Part shown: one piece after another, positions 593-36,593 of the stretch
How the letters are laid out: every line of letters starts with the position of its first letter
Position numbering within the stretch: position 1 is the stretch's first letter
Source: Gamarada debralockiae
Taxonomy: Eukaryota > Ascomycota > Leotiomycetes > Helotiales > Hyphodiscaceae
DNA: 52,152 nucleotides
NCBI GenBank assembly: GCA_002803225.1
Contig: NXFV01000492.1
Span: 1 to 52,152, forward strand
Direction of reading: 5' to 3'
The notes under the pieces: generated by a model
What the model saw: the letters and a program-made list of their open reading frames with translations, nothing else
What the model was told of the DNA's origin: nothing
The model's database searches: none
Program-made: the position numbers and the translations under genes

Positions 593-1030
593 GCCTATGA
601 CCTAATGCACTGGCAGAAGGCTCTTGCGACGCTTTGCAAATGGGGATGGAGATATTAGGCGATAGTTGAAGAATTAAATTTCTGTAAGCAGCTACAAGAT
701 GCGAGTACTGTGCCGTAGTCCCGATTGTGATACGGTGCAGGACTAGTCGGCAGGGATCTCTGTCTCCCCCGCTAGTAAAAACATGGCTAGATTAAGGCTA
801 CTTGGTAAGAAGCTTAATGCGGACAAAATAAGGATTTTTGGTCATTAGTCAAGTGATGCAAGTCAGCTGATAAAAATTCCTCTTGCTGACCTCGCACCTT
901 ATGTATGTAAAAAAATTAAAAAAGGGCACTAGTGCTCTTTAGGCTTAGCCGGGCGGAATCGACTTCATCCTCATCCATCAACAACAATTGTAAACACAAA
1001 GGTTGTAACTTAGAAGAACACATCAAAATC
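593..1030. other. Intergenic region upstream of the repeat-protease gene
   Basis: No ORF of note and no recognisable motif. The reading frame of the downstream gene extends back to about 932 but contains no ATG before 1031, so this stretch is read as promoter and leader. Confidence 0.5.
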
Positions 1031-4000
1031 ATGGACAATCTGGCTACAGAAATCAAGGATAATCTAGCTACAGTGGCGGCAGGAATCCGGGGAAGTGACG
1101 TATCAACGATGCAGAAACTTCTGAGCCAGCTTGACGATACTGTAAGCATCCCAGTGGAGGTGTTTGCAACGGCAGCCAGAAATACATGGGGAGGAGCCGA
1201 GATGATAGAGTTATTGTTAGAGAGGGAGGGTGAGACAGAAATGATAACAGAACAGGTAGTATTAGAGGCATGTGCTAATTATAGGATTGGAGAGGAGATT
1301 ATGAGGAAGTTACTGGACAAGAGGGGCAGTGAAGTCGTGATTACAGAAGGAGTAATACAAGCCGCTGCAAAAAATGAAGGCAAGGGGAAGGAGGTGATGA
1401 GCTTACTACTAGAGCGGGGCAGCGAATTTGTTATTACTGATAAAGTGGTACAAGCCGCGGCGGGGAACAGAAAGAGCGGGGAAGAGGTGATGAGGTTACT
1501 ACTAAAGGAGCGGGGCAACGAGGTCGTGATTACTGAAGGAGTATTGTATACAGCTGTAAGGAATCAAAGGAGTGGGGCAGAGGTGATGAGGTTGCTGCTA
1601 AAGGAGCGGGACAACGAAGTTGTGATCACTGAAGGAGTGGTGCAAGCAGCTATAGAGAACGGAAAGAGTGGGAAACAAGTGCTGAGGTTGCTGCTAGAGG
1701 AGCAGGGCAGCAAGGTCGTGATCACTGAAGGAGTAGTGCAGGCTATTGCGCGGGAATTTGATGAGGAGGTAATGAGGCTACTGCTAGAGCGGGGCAGCGA
1801 AGTTGTAATTACTGAAGGAGTAGTGCAGGCAGCGGCGGGGAACAGAATTAGTGGGGCAGAGGTGATGAGGTTGCTGCTAAAGGAGCGGGGCAACGAAGTT
1901 GTGATCACTAAAGGAGTAGTGCAGGCAGCAGCGGGGAACAGAATTAGTGGGGAAGAAGTGATGAGGTTGCTGCTAGAGGAGCGGGGCAGCAAGGTCGTGA
2001 TCACTGAAGGAGCAGTGCAGGCTATTGCGCGGGAATTTAATGGGGAAATGATGAGGTTACTACTAGAGCGGGGCAACGAAGTTGTAATAACTGAAGGAGT
2101 AGTGCAGGCAGCGGCGGGGAACAAAAGTGGTAGGGAACAAGTGATGAGGTTGCTGCTAGAGGAGCAGGACAGCGAGGTCGTGATCACTGAAGGAGCAGTG
2201 CAGGCTATTGCGCGGGAATTTAATGAGGAGGCTATGAGGTTACTGCTAAAGCGGGGCAGCGAAGTTGTGATCACTGAAGGAGTAGTGCAGGCAGCGGCGG
2301 GGAACAGACATAGTAAGGAACAAGTGATGAGGTTGCTGCTAGAGGAGCGGGGCAGCAAGGTCGTGATCACTGAAGGAGCAGTGCAGGCTATTACGCGGGA
2401 ATTTAATGAGGAGGCGATGAGGTTACTGCTAGAACGGGGCAACGAAATTGTGATCACTGGAGGAGTGGTGCAGGCAGCGGCGGGGAACAGAAGTAGTGGG
2501 AAACAGGTGATGAGGTTGCTGCTAAAGAAGCGGGGCGGCAAGGTCGTGATCACTGAAAGAGCAGTGCAGGCTATTACGCGGGAATTTGATGAGGAGGCAA
2601 TGGGGTTATTGCTAGAGTGGGGCAACGAAATTGTGATCACTGAAGGAGTAGTGCAGGCAGCTGCAGGGAACAGAAAGAGTGGGGAAGAGGTGATGGGGTT
2701 ACTTCTAGAGGAGCGGGGTAGCGAAGTCGTGATTACTGAAGGAGTAGTGCAAGCAGCGGCGGGGAATAGAAGTAGTGGGGAACAAGTGGTGGGGTTGCTA
2801 CTAGGGGAGCGAGGCAGTGAGGTCGTGATCACTGAAGGAGTGGTGCAAGCAGCTATAGAGAACGGAAAGAGTGGGAAACAAGTGCTGAGGTTGCTGCTAG
2901 AGGAGCGGGGCAGCAAGGTCGTGATCACTGAAAGAGCAGTGCAGGCTATTGCGCTGGAATTTGGTGAGGAGATGGTGAGGTTACTGCTAGAGCGGGGTAA
3001 CAAAGTTGTGATCACTAAGGCGGTTGATAAAGAGGGACGGATGCCTCTCCATGATGTCGTTCGGGCTGGCTTTAAAGACGCTATGCAAGAGCTCGTGAGC
3101 CAGGGCGCCGATATCGAGGCGAGTTCGGCTGGAATTTCTGACCGAATACAATCTCCTACTTCAAGTGGCACGGTGACTGGATCATCTGATACGGCCTACT
3201 ACCACGGTATCAGAGGCGGCTTAGGCCTCCTCGCCAGCACTATTCCGAGACAAGCTTGGCCACCGAATCCTACTGACAGAGGATATACTAGCAAGAAACA
3301 CTTCTTTCCTGTTGGCACTCATCCAATTTCAGACAAATGGGAAACCGAGATTCTACCACTAATTATCCCCCTGAATACCCGTGGTAGTTGGCTGTCGATC
3401 CACTGCTTACGCATTGGTTTTGAGACTAAACCTGGGGACAATCCTGTCATCTTGCTACTGGTGAAGCTTTCGTCCGTTCCACCTGTGGAGGCTGAGGAAC
3501 TCGCAGGCTCAATCAAATCTATCTGTGAAGGGTTCATGCTCGAGGACGTGGAAGTCGAAATAGCAGAGATGCCATTGATGCAAAGCAGGGCAGGAACTGG
3601 AGATCAAGCATTTGTCCTTTCTGGACCATTCGACAATAAACTCTATACTGGTGCTTCCATTGGCCCGTCCCTCCCGTCTGGCGACCCGGATGATTCATTG
3701 TGGTGTGGAACATTTGCTGCTTACCTTTCTGCGAGGGAAAACAAACATGCCAACAATCGCATTCTTCTCGCTTTGACAAACGACCACGTCTGCTTTGATG
3801 TTGATAAGAGGGATGAGAGAGGCGACATAACACGGGCAGTAAGGCCATGTTTGGAATCAAACCTCATCAAAAGAGCTTTTAAGAGCGAAGGTGCTAAGCA
3901 AGAATACCTGATGGTAACACCAGCAATCCCAGACTACACAGCCACGGAAAAAACCTTGGATGACGACTATAAACGCGCCAACGCTAAGTACGAGAGGCAC

Positions 4001-4883
4001 AAAACTTTACCTACGCAAGGACCTAACCACCCTACCACCATCAAAGCGAAGGAGAAGCTTGATCTGGCGACGAACGCGCTTTCCCACTTCCGTCAAGCGA
4101 AGAAGACTCTTGGATTGGTATATGGAACAGGAGGAGATCGAGTCGACGTTGGGAGCCGAATGCCAATGGACTGGGGCGTTATAAAAGCCCTAGATTCCGA
4201 CCCTGTTCACAATTGCTATAGTGCACTTAACAAGGCGAGTCAACTCCTAATTTCCCGAACAGAAAGCATGCCATTAACAAAGTCCAAAGCTACCCCCAAG
4301 GGTTCTCCAAGATCCAGTCAACACCGAAAGTGCCATCAAGCAAAGCACAATCCGACATCAAAAGAGGAAAACCCCTACCTTCAACGACCTACTAGACGAT
4401 ATAGATCTTGACGACACGCTCCCCACACAAATTTCTGAAATACGGTCCACTCCTCCCGAAACAGACGAAGTCTTCTTCAAAGTCGGCCGCACAACAGGCT
4501 GGACAGCAGGTGTCCCCAATTCCTGCCGTTCCGTCTACTTCGAAGTCTACAACGAAAGAGTACACACCGAGGCCGAGAAAGACGAGCATGAATACGCTAA
4601 TTATGGCGCGTGCTTAATGTGGTGTTTCCTTGGCGTCAGATCTGATAGACCGTTTAGTCAAGGTGGTGATTCTGGGAGTTTGGTGTTTGATAGATTTGGA
4701 AAGGCAGTTGGGTTGTTGCTCTGTGGGACGAATGAGAGGAGGAGTCCGACGGGGAGTTTTGTCGAGGTGCCGGATATTAGTTCTGTTGTGTCATTGGAGG
4801 TTGTGCTAAGGGATATTGAGAGGCAGTTGGAGTTGAGTGAGATTAAGTTTGCGAATAGGACGGCGGTGAAACGAAAATTTTGA
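1031..4883 (+). CDS. VVITEG-repeat / ankyrin / trypsin-like serine protease fusion
   Basis: Start chosen at the first ATG in frame (1031); the frame upstream begins only with GTG. Residues about 40-660 are some 20 tandem 29-32 residue units of the type 'VVITEGVVQAAAGN..SGEEVMRLLLEERGS', a repeat seen in fungal NACHT/ankyrin-type proteins. One ankyrin-like unit follows (GRMPLHDVVRAGF...GADI). The C-terminal half is a chymotrypsin-fold protease: His in LTNDHV (about H919), Asp in MPMDWGVI (about D1047), the family signature VFFKVGRTTGWTAG and the nucleophile in QGGDSGS (TCT at 4671). The protease crosses from one frame to another near 4240-4310. A 73-nt GT-AG intron at 4239-4311 would join the frames and give about 1259 residues; a frameshift is the alternative. 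No NB-ARC/NACHT domain is present. Its role is unknown; an immune or incompatibility effector is an inference from the repeat family. Confidence 0.7.
1145..3019 (+). repeat. Coding tandem repeat array (about 20 units of 87-96 nt)
   Basis: Two unit types alternate: a long one with VVQAAAGN..SGEEVM (32 aa) and a short one with VQAIAREF.EE.M (29 aa). From about 1700 onward many units are nearly identical at the DNA level, which implies recent expansion or conversion. All unit lengths are multiples of three, so the frame is kept. The opposite strand is open from 3171 to 1564 only because of this repetition. Confidence 0.85.
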
Positions 4884-5461: not shown

Positions 5462-6733
5462 CAGTTATGCTTTGGGTTACAACTTATGCGGAAAATACCT
5501 CTATCAAAAGTGCAGGCCTTGAAATGAAGTTGCATCTTGTCATGTCTCTGGGTATATCCACAACCATTCAGGCAGGCACCTTTCTCGAATTGGTGTTTGT
5601 TCCTATGATGGCGATTGAGATCCGACCGTCTCCCGCAGCTGATAGGGCATTTTGCATACTCTTAAGGGACGTGACGATGTTGCTCAACTTGGTACAGCTT
5701 CAGCTTAAGAATACTGTAAAATATTGGAGGGCATCCTTTAATTTTGCAGTCATGCACATTCTTCCATGGCTAAAGGGGAGATCAAAGGTATCGTTCTCGA
5801 CTGCTAAAAGGTCCATGCGATAGCAACAAGAGAGTAGGTGAGGATCGAAGTCATCTTGTGTATTTGAAGTGGTGGCAGTGAAGCTGTATCCCTCAAAAGT
5901 AAGGGAAAGTGATGTTTCTAGCATGACCACGCACCTCAGCCATAACGATGCGCATGCCCTCATCTATCATACCCAAGTCATGAATTTGCTTAGTAAGGGG
6001 GTGAGTGTGTACTGCAGCTACCCGTTGTGCTATACAGGGCGTTGCTTCCCATCGCGACGCCTGCATACGCGAAGCACCGAAATGACGCCCTTCAACCTGC
6101 ACATACCCACCGTAGCACAGAAATGAATGCCTTCGGCGTTCGACTGGAGGGAGCTGAATGGTCCGTATGCCCATCTCGTTAGAGTATGCAGTGCAATTTC
6201 GTGGATGGTGCGAAGGCCTTGGCAAACCGGGCCCAATCACAGTCCACCCTCTTCCGGGCCGGGTTTTGAATCTCACCACAAATTTGCAGAAATGAAAGGC
6301 TTTCCCTCGGGATTTTCGGTTTTCGCTTCTGCCACACCCTGCCGTACACCAAAGTTAGTACTCCTACGGTGTCCTTGAGGGAACAGATCCCACGTTGACC
6401 AGTGTAGAATTGAAGATGATGATGCTATGGAGGGGGTTGAGAAAATGCTTTTAAGATTTGTTCAAGCACAGACTGCACAGTGAAGGGAAAAGTTTCTTCC
6501 TAGGAAGAGACCCATATGGCTTAAAAAGTCCCCGAATATGTGCTTCTTCCCCCTTTCTTGCGTTTTGGCTTCCCGTGTATATTAACATCTCCCTCAATTT
6601 TGGTCAGCAACCAGAGTTCGTGGTACTGGCTGTACAGAATACAGGATACAATGCAATGTACTTACCATTGAGTCAAGTAACCCACCACATTGGCTTTCAA
6701 TTCCATTACTGGTCAACCAGAGAGAAGAGGAGA
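5462..6733. other. Region without a supported gene
   Basis: Several short overlapping ORFs on both strands, none with a recognisable domain. The best coding-like piece is on the minus strand around 5700-5800 (ENDTFDLPFSHGRMC), not connectable to a start. Nothing else is seen. Confidence 0.4.
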
Positions 6734-6944
6734 GACATGCTGTCTTGAGTTACCAAAGCCACGCCTGCGTTGCAAAGAGACAAGACAAGTGGCAAGATCA
6801 TCCATCGTATTATCTCATGCTCTATTTGACCTCATCATCCGAGTATCTGTCGTTTGCCTTCTGGAGTCTCTGCGCAGTGGTTCCTTTTCCCTTGCCGACA
6901 GTCAGTCCTTGTGAATATACCCGTCGCACGGACCTCCGTTTCAC

Positions 6945-7114: not shown

Positions 7115-7519
7115 ATGAAAGCGTCTCTCATTATTTCGCTGCTACCACTCGTCTATGGCATCAACATCAGCGCAACCAATTACTCCCAGTATGCTCCGGA
7201 CTGCCCATTCGACGGGAAGGTCCAGACATTTTCTATCGATGGATACTGTGTGAACGTCGGCACCAAGTGCAAGAAGCATAAGGATTGCTTTACCAAGAAG
7301 AACGATTACGCCATCAAGAAAGGATGCAAAGGGCACGGCATCCCTCTTGGTGCCGGAAATTCTTGCCTCGATGGAATATGCCGTCACTCCTTGTTTATGA
7401 CGGAGGGCTCTGCGTGCAGTTGCTTTGCACGTTGCGGGTATGTCGAAGGTGGATGGGAACGGGACCTCTATTGTATCAACAATGTGTGCCAACGGCTACC
7501 AGCCACTGTGCAGCCGTGA
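7115..7519 (+). CDS. Small secreted Cys-rich protein (134 aa), effector candidate
   Basis: Single exon with an ATG in CCCA-ATG context. The N-terminus MKASLIISLLPLVYG is a short hydrophobic signal peptide, cleaved near residue 15-18. The mature part has 12 cysteines, including GSACSCFARCG and LYCINNVC, and is Lys-rich; this fits a disulfide-bonded apoplastic protein. No Pfam family is recognised. A paralogue follows 1 kb downstream (8506-9103) and extends further at the C-terminus with another Cys-rich module; in this copy translation stops at 7519, and a decayed version of that module is still visible at about 7600-7720. Function as a plant- or microbe-facing effector is inferred only from size, secretion signal and cysteines. 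Confidence 0.75.
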   Translation: MKASLIISLLPLVYGINISATNYSQYAPDCPFDGKVQTFSIDGYCVNVGTKCKKHKDCFTKKNDYAIKKGCKGHGIPLGAGNSCLDGICRHSLFMTEGSACSCFARCGYVEGGWERDLYCINNVCQRLPATVQP

Positions 7520-7559
7520 AAGGCATTGATGACTGAGTATTAAGTATAAGTCTTGATGG

Positions 7560-7750
7560 AAAATACGCCCACCCACCCCATTTCGCTTCACGTCCATAAG
7601 TGCAGTCATTGCGCAGAGCATGACGGGAAGAGTGAGAGAATATGGGACATGTGCTGTGAGGATTGGACTTTTAGGAGGCGGATTTCTGCTGGGACTTGTC
7701 GGAGGAGGGTATCTACTCTTTGTTTTCAAGCCTTCACAGACGATAAGCAT
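7560..7750 (+). pseudogene. Relic of the C-terminal Cys-rich module of copy 1
   Basis: Beyond the stop of the 134-aa gene, the reading containing MCCEDWTF and AGTCRRR resembles VCCADGFC...STCRAD of copy 2 (about 9034-9090) in order and spacing. It is separated from the upstream gene by stops. The resemblance is by eye and moderate. Confidence 0.35.
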
Positions 7751-8505
7751 ATTGGCCAGAGTGGTCGTTCTTCAAGCGCTATAGCTTGAACGCCACTTTC
7801 TGCGATGCCTGATCTCCTCTGCTCCAATTGACCATTCTTGAGTACTGAAATATGTGGTTTGTGATATTTCTTAGAGGACTCCTTCAACATCTCATTTAGT
7901 GTTTCTCGATTCCATCATTGGCAGAGTGTGGCGTCCCAAGATGTAGCTAGGCAGGACTGCTTTTGTTTGAACGGATTGCATAGCACTTCAGGGGATGTAA
8001 GTACGATCTGACTTCCCGCAGAATCGACGATGTAATGTGCATTATTTGGGTTTACGAAGGTTATATCTGAAAGCTGTCATTGGTGGAACAAGTGACCTGA
8101 GGACATGTTTTCAGAGTTACCAAGCCACGCCTGTGCTATGGAGTAAGACGGGAAAGGAGAGTGATCGACTGGTGGTATTTCCAATCTTCTATATCATCGT
8201 TCCATCACCTCGCGTTTCGGCAGTATATCCACACCTCAGCAAAAGTTCCTTTCATTTTGCCTCCAAGTCCAATCCGTCGACGACATCTCATCACTTGGAA
8301 CACTTTCAAGACTGCTCAGACTCCGACAGTCTCTCGCGGTCATCTCAGCTTCTGCCACCATCACTCAAATCACGCTCAAGGCACATCAGCGACCTCCACT
8401 CCCTTCGTCTTCATCTCAGCTTCTGCTACTCGAGATCTCGTCTCTCTGTTTACAGTTCTTCATCAACGAACCTGAATACTGCCATCGTCAAAGCCTCTCA
8501 ATCCC

Positions 8506-31234: not shown

Positions 31235-32514
31235 ATGGCAGAGATAATAGGCAGCATAGGCTTGATAGCCAGTGTGACACAATTGGTTCAATATGCCCAC
31301 AAAATCAGCGTTTTGATAAGGGAGATACATGGGAGGGTTCAGGGTGGTGCGCAGTTGCAGGTTTACGCGGATCAGCTGCAGCAGCTGCTGGAAACCACAC
31401 TCGAAATCCAGCAAAATAGCGCTCTTCATAGTTCTGCAGTCCACAAAAGGGTTGATGCATGTCGAACTGAGGCCGGACGTCTCCAGGTACTCCTCGAGAA
31501 AGCGGCAGCTGATTATACGACAGGGTTTGTGGGCAGACGGTATTATAAGGCAGCCATCGGGAGCAAAGAATCGAGAATCGCCAAATCTTTCCAGAAACTC
31601 GAAGAAGAGAAGACTTCGCTCCTTTGTTGTATTGCGCTTTCGAATACGGAGAAACTTGCGTCGATTGACAGAGGAGTAAAGGAGGTGAAAGAGCTTATGC
31701 CTAAACCGTTTTCGGAACTCAAGATGGACAACCAAGGGAGAAGAGCTTGCTATTACAGTACACCTGAGGTTTGAAAGAGTTCTGTGTTCTAATATTGCAG
31801 TCGCTAAGCAGTCTTCAGTCGGAGGAAGCGATGCAAGCGGAAGATGAAAGAGCTAACAGTGACAGCGCAAAACAAACATCAAGTAGGCCTTCAAATCCTT
31901 CACATGCCCCAACGACTGACATACCCGAAGGACCTCCGGCTCAATATTACCCAGACCAGGGCTCACTTTCGCTGAATCGGGTCGGAAACCCATACCAACA
32001 ACAGGTCGGATGGCATAACCAAGCAACAAGTCCATGGAACAGCGACTGGAACGGCGACTGGAACGACTGCCCACCTCAAAATACTCTCCCCTGGGATCCA
32101 CAAGCGAGTAATCAGTGGAACGGTAGGTACAACGCGAGCCCTCAATGTCCTCCCAGTGGATACTTCTTCAACCCACCACAGTTTCAACAACCTGTTGGTG
32201 GCTCGGTCCCTTTCAAAAACAGCTGGAAGAGTTGTAAGGTGACCGGAAGGGAGAGCGGCGTTGTTGGACAACAACAGAATGGGCATCTAGGGTTAAGCAA
32301 GGCAGAACAAGATAGCCATTATTACGAAGGATGTACCGTTGAGGGAAGTGGAAAGCAGTGGAATGGGTCTGCAAATGGAGAGGATGGTTTAGCTGCGGCG
32401 CATAGCTTCTGGAGTGATACGAAGAACACCGAATCAAAGAATAGCATCTTGGGAGATATAGATAAGTTCCTGAGCCGGAGATCAAAAAACAGAGACGGGG
32501 GGCGAAATTCCTAG
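31235..32514 (+). CDS. SesA-like effector candidate with C-terminal amyloid-like repeats
   Basis: N-terminal 150 residues (MAEIIGSIGLIASVTQLVQY, helical, then QQLLETTLEI and ESRIAKSFQKLEEEKTSLL) resemble the SesA/NACHT-associated N-terminal domain of fungal cell-death proteins. A Trp/Gln/Asn/Pro-rich linker follows (WNSDWNGDWNDC). Near the C-terminus two units share C-x-V-x-G-x6-G: one at about 312-333 (NSWKSCKVTGRESGVVG), one at about 345-365 (HYYEGCTVEGSGKQWNG). They are 33 residues apart, and Phe-Trp follows at 375-376. This layout recalls the HET-S prion-forming domain. Exons: 31235-31768 and 31819-32514 (about 409 residues), joined by a 50-nt intron with a weak donor (GTTTGA); a frameshift is the alternative. 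Function (membrane-targeting cell-death effector triggered by the NLR downstream) is inferred. Confidence 0.65.
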
Positions 32515-33295
32515 GATTGACCGTGGCGGTGAGAAGCGAACGGGAGCCAAATAGCATAGTCACAGCATGACCATGCGTGGCAAAGATTGACGCTAGTTGA
32601 TTTTGGCTCCAGAATCTCATTTCTACGGTCTCAGAGCGTCTTTTATAATTGGCAGCCGCAAAGTTGGCAGAATTGTTTTCAATCTTATTTGTTTAGTTGC
32701 CAATCGATCAAAATTCGCCGTATTATTTTCCTCTGTATTGGTGGAAGCTGCAATCTGCTACTTCGAGTCAGATCCTTGAATGCCAAACTTTCTACTTGTC
32801 TGAATTTCTATGCTTGGAGTGTTATTTTACATGACCATTATCTTGGGAAGGAACTCTCATTTCCTGCATTCTTGTGACGGACACCACCATAGGTGGAAAA
32901 CTCTGTCCATGCAGGACGCACTTGCAGAACTTTGGAATTAGCTTCACTCGCTTCTGCATTTTTCGGATGAAAAACAGGCAAGCTTACTGTCTTTTCATAT
33001 TCCTTGTCACCGAGTATTCAAACCGCCCAGGCCGGGAGCCCTGGATCCACCTGGCTTGAGCTATTGAGTCAACCAGATAGAGAGCCTTGCTTGCACAGCC
33101 CCCGGAGAGCAATAGGAGTACCGCCTGGGCGGATTTGGGTGAAAGGCAACTTTGATGTGCATGTGTTCACGAAACCTTTCCGTTCTATTAGTCTGTCATC
33201 CCTACCCGCCTGCGTCTTCTTCAATCAGCTTCCCAGTGGACGTGTTACGAGCTCATCGGATGAAGAATGAGAAGTGAGGACTAAGAGATCTGTAC
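32515..33295. other. Intergenic region between effector candidate and NLR
   Basis: 781 nt, AT-rich at 32600-32900. The two genes point the same way, so this is the promoter of the NLR gene. No motif recognised. Confidence 0.5.
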
Positions 33296-36200
33296 ATGGC
33301 GGCTTCGGGTCAATGGGCCAATGAACAGGCCGAAATCCAACACAATGGCCACAATTACGACAATCGAGTTCAACACAAGCAAGTTCAGATAAATGGCGTC
33401 AGTTTGGGTAACATAACACCACGCACCCATAGAGTCCTGGACCTCGGACCATACCAACTCTCAGACACCTATGTTGATCGGGCCGAGTTAACTGAGCTCA
33501 AGGACAAGCACAAGGAACTTGACAGCCATGGTAACGCTCAGCAGAGACTTCGGCTCTGTGGCATGCCAGGAACCGGAAAGACTCAACTGGCCATCAAATT
33601 CGCCACAGACGGTTTTGGCAAAGATAGGTACGCGCCTAATTCCCAATTACTGGTTTTGAAGTTAACAAGCGACCTCAAGATTTACAAACATCTGGCTCAT
33701 TGACGCGAGTACTCCCGAGAGAATCAAAGCTGGATTTGAGAAAATCGGCAAATACCTCGCGAGGCAGGAACGAAATGACGACTGGGAGCCGGACGCCGAA
33801 CAGCCATCCAATTTCGCAAAAATATGGCTAGGAAACAACAAGAACTGGCTTTTGATCTTGGACAACCTCTGCGACGTAGAAGAAAACCCTCTTCTTCCGT
33901 CATGGTACGAAGGCACGATTCTCATTACTACACAAAAGCATACACGGCATAGCCAAGAGATATCTGTTGGGAATATGAGTGAAGAAAATAGCATCAAATT
34001 ATTTCTTCAAACTGCCCACGAAAATGATACCACGGAAGAGGAGCGCCAGCAAGTACGGGACGCGGTGAACCTCTTGGACCGTCTTCCAATTGCAGTGTCA
34101 GCCGCCGGTTGTCTCATCCGTTATTACGCCACGATGCCACTGCTGGCTAAGGTCCAAAAATTCACAAAAGATTTTCGAGATGGGAAACATCATGGGTTTG
34201 AGAGGGTTTGGAGGGTCTTTAATCTTTCTATCGATGCTATCTTGAGCTCTCTACCAAGGCAAGATCTGGGTGTAATCCAGGAAGACGTTTGGGATATACT
34301 TCACTTTCTCGCGAATCTGGACTCGGGCAATCTATCGAGCGACGTGTTGAGATCCATTTACCACAACCTCCAAGGGAATATGGACAAGTTGTCGGCCTGG
34401 GAAAAATCGCATCTCTTTGGTGTGTTCACAAGGAGTACTGCTCGGACATGGATGGACCACAGGATCCACCGGTTGCTGAGCCTCCTGGCACAATACAACC
34501 TGATTGCGTTAAATGTTGATGCTAACAACGAATCGAGATTCAAATGTTCAATGCACTATATCGTTCAACGATGGCTTCTTAGAATTCAGCAAAGAGAAAG
34601 CCAGGCCAGTCCAAGTGATATGAACTCCATCTCCCCGGCTACTTGGAACAAGGCCGCTGTCACCCTCGCACAATCAATTTCATGGCAAACAAATTCTGAT
34701 GACCTGGAATACGATCATCGGCGCCTTGTGGTACCTCATATCATTGCGCTACTCAAAGTGGGTGAAAGTTCCCAAGCCAAAAGAAAGTTCTTTCACGACT
34801 TTTCTGAGAGTTCCATACTCGACCAAGTTGAGATTTCGCGCAAGTTCGCCCTCGCTTTTTATGAAGGAAGCTACTTTCACGAAGCGAGAGAGCTAAGAAT
34901 CAAGACTGAACAGGACCTCAAGTCGACCGGTCTCGCCACGCCAGAACTCAAACTGCTATATGCAAAGGCGAGAAGGGAGCTCGCGAGCTGCGAAGGCGAA
35001 CTTGGAGATATCAAGAGAGCCATAGAGCTTGTGACAGAAGTTTTGGAACACTCTCTGAGAGAGGGTAATATGAAGGACGACGAGATCTTGGTAGCGAAGG
35101 CGGACCTGGCGAGCTATTACCACGTACTGGGGGAGCGATCCGAGGAGTTACGACTACGCCAAGAGGTCTTGGACGGTTACAAAATCATCAAATCAGAAGA
35201 CGACGAAACAGTTTTGGAAGCGATGAGAATGCTTGCGAGCACTCTTTACAGCCTTGGACGCAGACCGGAAGCCTACAGAATTCGTCAAGAAGCATACGAG
35301 ATCAGGAAGACACTGAGAGGCCGGCCTCGTATCAAAATGCTCCAACTTGAAAGCGATCTTGCAGAGAGTCTAAGTGAAGAAGGGTGGTGGCTAGTGTCGC
35401 TGGAAATACGCAAGAGAATAGTCGACGAGGAGAAAAGAGCTTGGAGTCACTGTCGGCATCTCATCCTTCTCGCAATGACGAGGCTTGCCACAGGCTATAG
35501 CCAGGCGAAAATGAAGGATGAAGCCCGAGATCTAAGGCGCGAAACTTTGGCCCTCCATAAAGGGTACTATGGCGAAGAGCACCATGGGACATTGGAAGCG
35601 ATGGAACATCTCGCGAGCAGTGAAGCTGAGCTTGGAAATCTTGAAGAGGCTCTGTCATTGCAGAATCAGGTTGTCAAGATTCAAATGAGAAAATATGCGG
35701 AAGAGAGTCATCGACAGGTGTTGTTGGCCAATGACAAACTTGGGAGCCTGCTTTTTCGCCACGGCAACATGGAGCAGAAAAGGCAAGGACTGAGGTTGAA
35801 GCGAAAAGTATTAGAATACCGACGGCAGCAATTAGGTCCTGAGCACCAAGAGACTTTGATCGCAATGGAAAGGCTTGCAATTTGTCTGGACAAGCTAGGA
35901 AAGTCGGAAGACTCTGCACGACTTCGAAGGAAACTGGTCATTCTTCGATCTCGTCATCTCAAGGCGGGTGATGGCAAAATTCATCCTGAAACGCTGCGGG
36001 CAGTGATGGCGCTTGCCGATAATTATGATCGACTTTACCATAAACAAAGGGAGAAGAGTCAGGGAGTCGGACACAGACAATGTTTCAGCCGAAGTGTTGA
36101 CATGCAAAAACCTTTCAATCAGTACGAGTGGTGGGACAGCGAAATTTTTGAGGACTTGGTGGACAAGATTGACAGTCACGACGTCATCTCAGGACACGGG

Positions 36201-36593
36201 GACTTGGCTGTAATTGCTTTTCACATTCGAAAGAGTGTCCAGCGACACGTCGAAGATACCTTTGGACCCAAGCACAGGGTTACCCTCGAGCTCAAGACAC
36301 AGATCTCCGGTTGTGAAGCTTGTGCAAAACAGACGATGAAGGCTATTGAGATTCTGACGGAAGTGGTAGCCATTTTGGAGCAACAGCGAGGGAAAGATGA
36401 CGCAGAGGTGGTGCGGGTAAGAAAGCTCCGCTGGGAACATATGCAATACGTTGGGATCAATGACGAAGAACATGAAAGCGTTCCACTGGCTGGACTGCGC
36501 TCGTGGAGGCATAAGATCGTGTTGATCGGAGCTTCTCTTCTTCGTTGCATTGGATATTTATGTTGTTGCCGCCACGTAGAGACGGGAGTATAG
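33296..36593 (+). CDS. NB-ARC/TPR NLR-like receptor with N-terminal amyloid-like motif
   Basis: STAND ATPase of the fungal NLR type. Two exons, 33296-33627 and 33680-36593, joined by a 52-nt intron that restores DRFTNIWLIDASTPERIKAG; 1081 residues. The first 45 residues lack a folded effector domain and contain NYDNRVQHKQVQINGVSLGN (about 20-39). NB-ARC: Walker A GMPGTGKT at 89-96, Walker B LLILD at 168-172, sensor ILITTQ, and a GLPL-like LDRLPIAVSAAG. After a winged-helix-like part come kinesin-light-chain-type TPRs (LGDIKRAIELVTEVLEHS, LGERSEELRLRQEVLDGY, LGRRPEAYRIRQEAYEIR and more) that would sense the ligand. The C-terminus is hydrophobic and Cys-rich. The upstream neighbour is a matching effector candidate in the same orientation. 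Ligand unknown. Confidence 0.85.

Follow-up and report, generated by a model that had tools for sequence, protein, structure and literature searches.

A SesA effector gene and an NB-ARC/TPR receptor gene side by side in Gamarada debralockiae: a candidate amyloid relay with QxNG units at both termini

Detection of fungal amyloid signaling motifs currently draws on five families, namely HRAM, sigma, PP and PUASM 1 and 2 (PMC12261475). In 2012, STAND proteins (signal transduction ATPases with numerous domains) that combine NB-ARC with TPR and are associated with sesA had been described (PMC3321046), and a link between RHIM and HET-s has been drawn (Kajava 2014, as cited by PMC5485727). We analyzed a stretch of 52,152 nucleotides (the window), which is the entire contig C203 (NXFV01000492.1) of the 54.3-Mb genome of the fungus Gamarada debralockiae, whose gene content is fungal, and in which an earlier note, made from the letters alone, had placed a candidate amyloid-controlled pair of a SesA-like effector and a NOD-like receptor (NLR). 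The two-gene pair is real, consisting of a gene for a SesA-domain protein and a gene for an NB-ARC/TPR receptor. This receptor/effector architecture is already known, as both NB-ARC/TPR amyloid receptors and sesA/NLR pairs have been published; the motif fits no tested family on both sides.

There is good support for taking the two genes as a split NLR/effector module: at other loci of this genome, relatives of the SesA domain stand a short way upstream of NB-ARC or NACHT modules. We put at roughly 0.5 the fuller reading, in which the adjacent genes are a split cell-death module and the activated receptor templates the C-terminal Gln-x-Asn-Gly (QxNG) repeats of its neighbor into an amyloid-like fold. 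Such a relay is plausible and, at about even odds, the best single mechanism for the switch. Ligand binding by the TPR repeats would lead to oligomerization of NB-ARC, clustering the N-terminal motifs, which would then form a β-rich seed able to recruit the tail of the effector. Set free by this step, the SesA helical bundle would go on to damage membranes in the manner of the HET-S HeLo domain.

The gene pair and its relatives

Features of the pair in window coordinates were as follows.

31235..31768, + strand: effector exon 1, with the SesA domain at residues 7-124 (nucleotides 31253-31606), a four-helix bundle in the structure model; exon end uncertain
31801..32514, + strand: effector exon 2, a low-complexity tail with a conserved motif block; homologs P0001 and P0007-P0010
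32104..32133, + strand: first effector QxNG unit, ASNQWNGRYN; SNQWNGR invariant in 6/6 orthologs
32218..32298, + strand: putative tail repeat r1 (NSWKSCKV...GQQQNGHLGLS), from the effector ortholog comparison
32314..32385, + strand: putative tail repeat r2, SHYYEGCTVEGSGKQWNGSANGED; 8/9 points on the HRAM rule
32389..32412, + strand: segment after r2, LAAAHSFW, with Phe-Trp at its end, from the effector ortholog comparison
33296..33627, + strand: receptor exon 1, with the N-terminal motif and then the start of NB-ARC; GMPGTGKT from residue 89
33335..33412, + strand: receptor N-terminal motif IQHNGHNYDNRVQHKQVQINGVSLGN, residues 14-39; two QxNG units, Q/N/G-rich, conserved
33628..33679, + strand: receptor intron, 52 nucleotides, GT...AG
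33680..36593, + strand: receptor exon 2, with the remaining NB-ARC and the TPR repeats
36474..36590, + strand: receptor C-terminus, a hydrophobic, Cys-rich tail LIGASLLRCIGYLCCCRHVETGV

The SesA-like character of the effector, proposed in the earlier note, was borne out by residues 7-124, which matched Pfam SesA (PF17107) with 27.4 bits, over the cut-off of 26.3. The gene starts at 31235, its stop codon ends at 32514 and the receptor ATG lies at 33296 on the same strand, which agrees with the 781-nucleotide gap and shared orientation described before. The effector intron was ambiguous: donors at 31676, 31685 or 31769 all leave the frame open with the acceptor at 31800, giving 384, 387 or 415 residues, and a fourth GT donor (31758) breaks it. 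An intron of 32 nucleotides, one of these options, is unusually short. More than 200 residues follow the SesA domain. The domain was modeled as a four-helix bundle, and kinship with HeLo/MLKL-like helical domains was sought in that fold; Foldseek returned no match at E ≤0.001 and no HeLo entry among the best 50 matches, which excludes nothing. The fold prediction for the tail (predicted local distance difference test score 34) was not used. Sequence searches of solved structures, run with the profiles of the motifs and with the SesA domain, gave nothing credible, and matches to O-GlcNAc transferase (E 0.019-0.025), covering only 16 positions, were taken as chance. No relative was found in the viral contigs searched.

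Once the 52-nucleotide intron was removed, the receptor came to 1081 residues and its NB-ARC/TPR identity was confirmed, with NB-ARC at residues 73-296 (about 33512-34235, across the intron) followed by TPR repeats, whose best-scoring stretches lay at about 35205-35681. No Pfam match above cut-off was found before residue 73, consistent with the claim that the receptor has no folded N-terminal effector domain, and the Gln/Asn/Gly motif put at residues 20-39 is present, though better drawn as 14-39. Nor did any Pfam profile place this motif. At the other end of the receptor (36474-36590), the hydrophobic stretch contains CCC and could be a membrane anchor or a palmitoylation site.

Elsewhere in the genome, SesA relatives stood 327-663 nucleotides ahead of NB-ARC (contigs C352, C1041, C769 and C1098) or NACHT/NPHP3_N (C862 and C319) on the same strand, each of which may or may not be one intron-joined gene; the SesA matches on C1098 and C319 were weak, and NB-ARC on C1098 was visible only through comparison with the window receptor (E 0.012). 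We compared 16 other NB-ARC loci, namely 15 of the 43 NB-ARC matches in the genome (a count that excludes the window's own receptor) plus C1098. A Pfam effector domain lay upstream in nine and a SesA-like frame in four, and three (L039, L046 and L048) had no upstream effector domain within the frames scanned. By this comparison the receptor is unusual, its N-terminus being short and bearing a conserved motif.

Protein searches in metagenome data returned five homologs of effector exon 2 (P0007, 89%; P0001, 87%; P0008, 85%; P0009, 66%; P0010, 57%) and four of receptor exon 1 (P0003, 94%; P0004, 66%; P0005, 63%; P0006, 60%). The longest contig given for the receptor relative P0004 and the one given for the effector relative P0009 are equal in length (32,771 bp); the two were therefore taken to lie together, so that linkage of receptor and effector is probably conserved in a relative. 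Another reading gives the two genes no common pathway: the effector would be what is left of a SesA-NB-ARC gene that split, or the genes would be neighbors by chance. Chance neighbors are conceivable because SesA-like frames are numerous in the genome (40 matches at E up to 0.1), but both proteins have conserved homologs, their linkage is probably conserved, and against P0009 and P0010 the r1-r2 windows of the effector tail were 47-93% identical compared to 20-87% in the rest of the tail. We consider this reading highly improbable.

Conserved QxNG units at both termini

The two termini share a recurrent unit. In the effector, SNQWNGR, QQNGHLGLS and KQ-x-NGSANG were kept in 6/6 sequences; in the receptor, QHNGH was kept in 5/5, and the motif region was recognizable in all four N-terminal homologs, three of which are five residues short in the middle of it. 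QxNG occurred three times in effector exon 2 in all six orthologs, a number reached by 2 to 6 of 5000 shuffles. Within residues 1-50 of the receptors, the window protein, P0003 and P0005 had two units (2, 2 and 13 of 5000 shuffles), while P0004 and P0006 had one (635 and 250 of 5000). Among 4023 six-frame segments of at least 35 residues, taken from the window and 20 loci chosen as SesA or NB-ARC loci and thus a non-random set, three held at least two QxNG units: the effector, the receptor and a SesA-like paralog on contig C1074. The pattern Y-x-[NGDS]-x(7,9)-Q-x-N-G gave five six-frame matches, four in those three proteins and one elsewhere, against 0.65 in shuffles. As both unit and pattern were chosen post hoc, with the sequences already seen, these figures are descriptive and not clean tests. 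Within the effector tail, the self-alignment of r1 with r2 was reached by 2/100 column shuffles at gap costs of 5 and 7 and by 7/100 at 4.

The C1074 paralog (L034, G000:C1074:100-10000, 5814-6797, minus strand) was 27% identical to the effector SesA domain, had no Pfam match and carried two tail repeats ending in QVNG and QLNG; its tail aligned with the effector tail across both units (2/6 orthologs tested). A divergent neighboring frame (7201-7827, plus strand) encodes a low-complexity protein with two repeats that look similar by eye and a C-terminal CAIM, which we take to be like a CAAX prenylation box; this protein might be a partner anchored in the membrane. Nearest among the SesA paralogs (42% identical) is one on C552 (L029, G000:C552:8800-18700, 4149-4493, minus strand), whose tail exon contains three copies of a repeat (Y-x-N-V-x-T...F-V-G-G) at spacings of 27 and 24 residues; the repeat and its HRAM-like look were judged by eye. 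This C552 tail contained no QxNG and did not align with the effector tail (771/1000 shuffles as good); it did align with the C1074 tail (5/1000). No NB-ARC match was found in the 9.9 kb around either paralog, a scan that left NACHT aside. Searched against their own genome, the effector and paralog tails each found only themselves, in a search coarse for short repeats and motifs.

Several comparisons of the two termini weigh against an amyloid relay, as does the family assignment given below. Pairwise, direct homology of the receptor and effector tails was rejected, with 787/1000 shuffles scoring as high; the related units that the earlier note saw near the effector C-terminus are a weaker finding than it made them. 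Alignment of tail profiles was borderline (at a gap cost of 5, reached by 16/300 shuffles of receptor columns and 10/100 of effector columns; at a gap cost of 7, 25/300 and 12/100), and the gap-cost-5 alignment leaves the QxNG units unpaired with r1 or r2. A matrix built from the effector units picked up the motif of the window receptor and that of P0003 and missed it in P0004-P0006, and the C1074 tail aligned with the receptor only for P0003 (20/1000 shuffles; others 68-167/1000). The five-residue loss in the receptor motif (3/5 sequences) had no matching change in the effector sequences compared. In a 5 x 6 score matrix, similarity within pairs was no higher than between pairs, contrary to the co-varying motifs sought and partly what the earlier note had named as its refutation; this test is thin because the true pairs were only the window and the one inferred pair, P0004/P0009. 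Of the amyloid-controlled pair first proposed, the two-gene NLR/effector module is supported, together with a short motif that no Pfam profile places; an amyloid relay through that motif would be its candidate switch.

A split module could also signal through ordinary protein contacts, for example with an NB-ARC/TPR wheel recruiting the SesA bundle and the conserved Q/N/G-rich termini serving as linkers or docking peptides. That the two motifs neither align above shuffles nor co-vary fits this alternative. Moreover, the placing of SesA relatives directly before NB-ARC and NACHT modules means that the domain may work in cis, with no amyloid motif needed. It leaves less room for the short receptor N-terminus before NB-ARC and for the conservation of both the motif and the effector tail, which share QxNG units, and we regard it as unlikely.

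Published motif families and other neighbors

HRAM, PP, sigma and PUASM were scored on both termini with our own coding of published consensus texts rather than the published hidden Markov models, the HRAM rule being taken from PMC4518210 and the PP consensus from PMC3321046; the genome gave a positive control for sigma alone and none for HET-s, PP or PUASM. Effector r2 scored 8/9 points on the HRAM rule in 6/6 orthologs (1-6/300 shuffles as good), and r1 fits the 21-position rule only with an insertion. Scored ungapped, the receptor motif reached 5/9 in the window (248/300 shuffles as good) and 5-6/9 in the other four receptors (73-260/300), which is chance; by this rule there is no HRAM motif at the receptor N-terminus. 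Pfam HET-s_218-289 did not match any of the six effector tails, which weighs little because that profile matched only 38 of 155 double-repeat proteins (PMC4518210); a genome-wide search for it likewise gave no match and carries no weight. For PP, the receptors scored 6-7/11, with 33 (window), 3 (P0003), 53 (P0004), 2 (P0005) and 27 (P0006) of 300 shuffles as good, and the strict consensus was absent from the receptor N-termini. Effector tails also scored 6-7/11, mostly at chance (9-130/300), the lone low figure (P0007, 9/300) sitting away from the QxNG units, and PP was not assigned to them.

Pfam found no sigma motif in the six effector tails or five receptor N-termini. The scan works here for sigma, as it detected SesA with NACHT_sigma in two other frames, on C671 (above cut-off) and C7 (only jointly with neighbors). 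By the sigma rule, all five receptors were at chance (21-55/60 shuffles as good) and the effectors were mixed (0-2/60 in four, 6/60 in P0009 and 33/60, chance, in P0010), compared to a score of 2.35 with 0/60 for the control on C671. Window r2 resembles sigma unit A (GSGKQWN). The genome's own sigma segment did not align above shuffles with the five receptors (318-844/1000) or the six effectors (186-533/1000), and sigma was rejected for the receptor and hence as a motif of both sides. On C671 (L051) the SesA frame and sigma motif stand directly before a NACHT/NPHP3_N frame; on C7 (L052) they stand directly before a frame that is NB-ARC-like by eye, with no NB-ARC match in the scan. At each locus the frames may be fused by an intron or belong to separate genes. 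PUASM (FxGxGxQxxGxGxF) was likewise rejected: receptors scored 2/7 (265-297/300 shuffles as good) and effectors 4/7 in four (23-37/300) and 3/7 in two (249 and 287/300), and the effector domain is not PNP_UDP. No known prion motif was found by Pfam in the effector tail or receptor N-terminus, and string searches for GDQN and GxQ[YFW]xxxGxGxQN found neither in the effector, the receptor or P0001-P0010.

Scoring against HRAM, PP and sigma, as suggested earlier, gave likenesses to two families and none that covers both sides: judged by the published rules, the tail of the effector resembles HRAM, whereas the motif of the receptor resembles PP/RHIM. The termini might be amyloid motifs of different families, with the effector's double repeat serving another receptor of the genome, the receptor's motif serving another effector, and their adjacency being a relic. 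The contrast between r2 and the receptors on the HRAM rule, and the PP scores of the receptors beside those of the effectors, speak for such a reading. A relic would leave the probably conserved linkage unexplained, and a search insensitive to short motifs turned up no copy of the effector tail elsewhere in the genome; we think this reading quite unlikely.

Near the start of the contig, an open reading frame (932-4411) carries DUF7104 repeats (15 matched stretches; the model has 31 positions) and ankyrin repeats, in a region of tandem DNA repeats with periods of 93-279 and 71-79% matches.

Significance and comparison with known systems

If true, the relay would add one motif beyond HRAM, sigma, PP and PUASM 1 and 2, and the pair would test cross-seeding between seemingly mismatched motifs. 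It would also expose a blind spot of screens. Proteins of 310 residues or more fell outside the HRAM survey of 2015 (PMC4518210), and the 2022 paired-motif search was confined to effector tails of 10-150 residues, while a second 2022 search, of the last 100 residues of neighbors of known-motif NLRs, was without such a limit (both PMC9815663); an effector of 384-415 residues with more than 200 past SesA exceeds both limits. Going further, an undescribed QxNG-repeat motif might bridge two families regarded as separate, with an HRAM-like effector and a PP/RHIM-like receptor. It would then be a surviving intermediate of the shared ancestry proposed for the HET-s and RHIM amyloids, overlooked as screens kept short effectors or tails; we consider this very unlikely. 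Literature searches by general terms, motif figures and supplements aside, showed no report of a QxNG-type SesA/NLR pair.

Closest in gene content is the sesA/sesB/het-eN (sigma) system of Nectria haematococca and relatives (PMC3321046), where a SesA effector likewise adjoins a STAND/NLR gene and Q/N/G-rich segments likewise mark the effector C-terminus and the receptor N-terminus; it differs in that Pfam NACHT_sigma was found at neither terminus of the window pair. A recently proposed new motif, GDQN of Fusarium oxysporum, likewise joins a SesA effector and a probable NLR (PMC12261475), and its motif strings are not those of the window pair or P0001-P0010. HET-S/NWD2 and the HRAM families (PMC4518210) share two putative effector C-terminal repeats that are separated by a loop and followed by an aromatic segment, as well as a receptor motif, and window r2 fits their positional rule. 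HET-S has a HeLo domain where this effector has SesA, although sesA proteins were included in the HRAM survey (PMC4518210). Window r1 also needs a five-residue insertion, positions 18-19 read N-G where hydrophobic-G is usual, and the motif of the receptor misfits the HRAM rule. Compared to PNT1/HELLP (PP motif, RHIM-like; PMC7889193), the receptor misses the first half of the PP consensus and the effector QxNG units show no PP motif above chance. The NB-ARC/TPR architecture, which the earlier note had counted as a difference from the classical case, is no novelty, being known from PNT1 (PMC7889193) and the sesA-associated STAND proteins (PMC3321046). Like PNT1, the window receptor has a short motif at its N-terminus in addition to NB-ARC and TPR. 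In its second half this motif follows the PP consensus (PMC3321046), reading V-Q-I-x-G-x-N-x-G-x-I in P0003.

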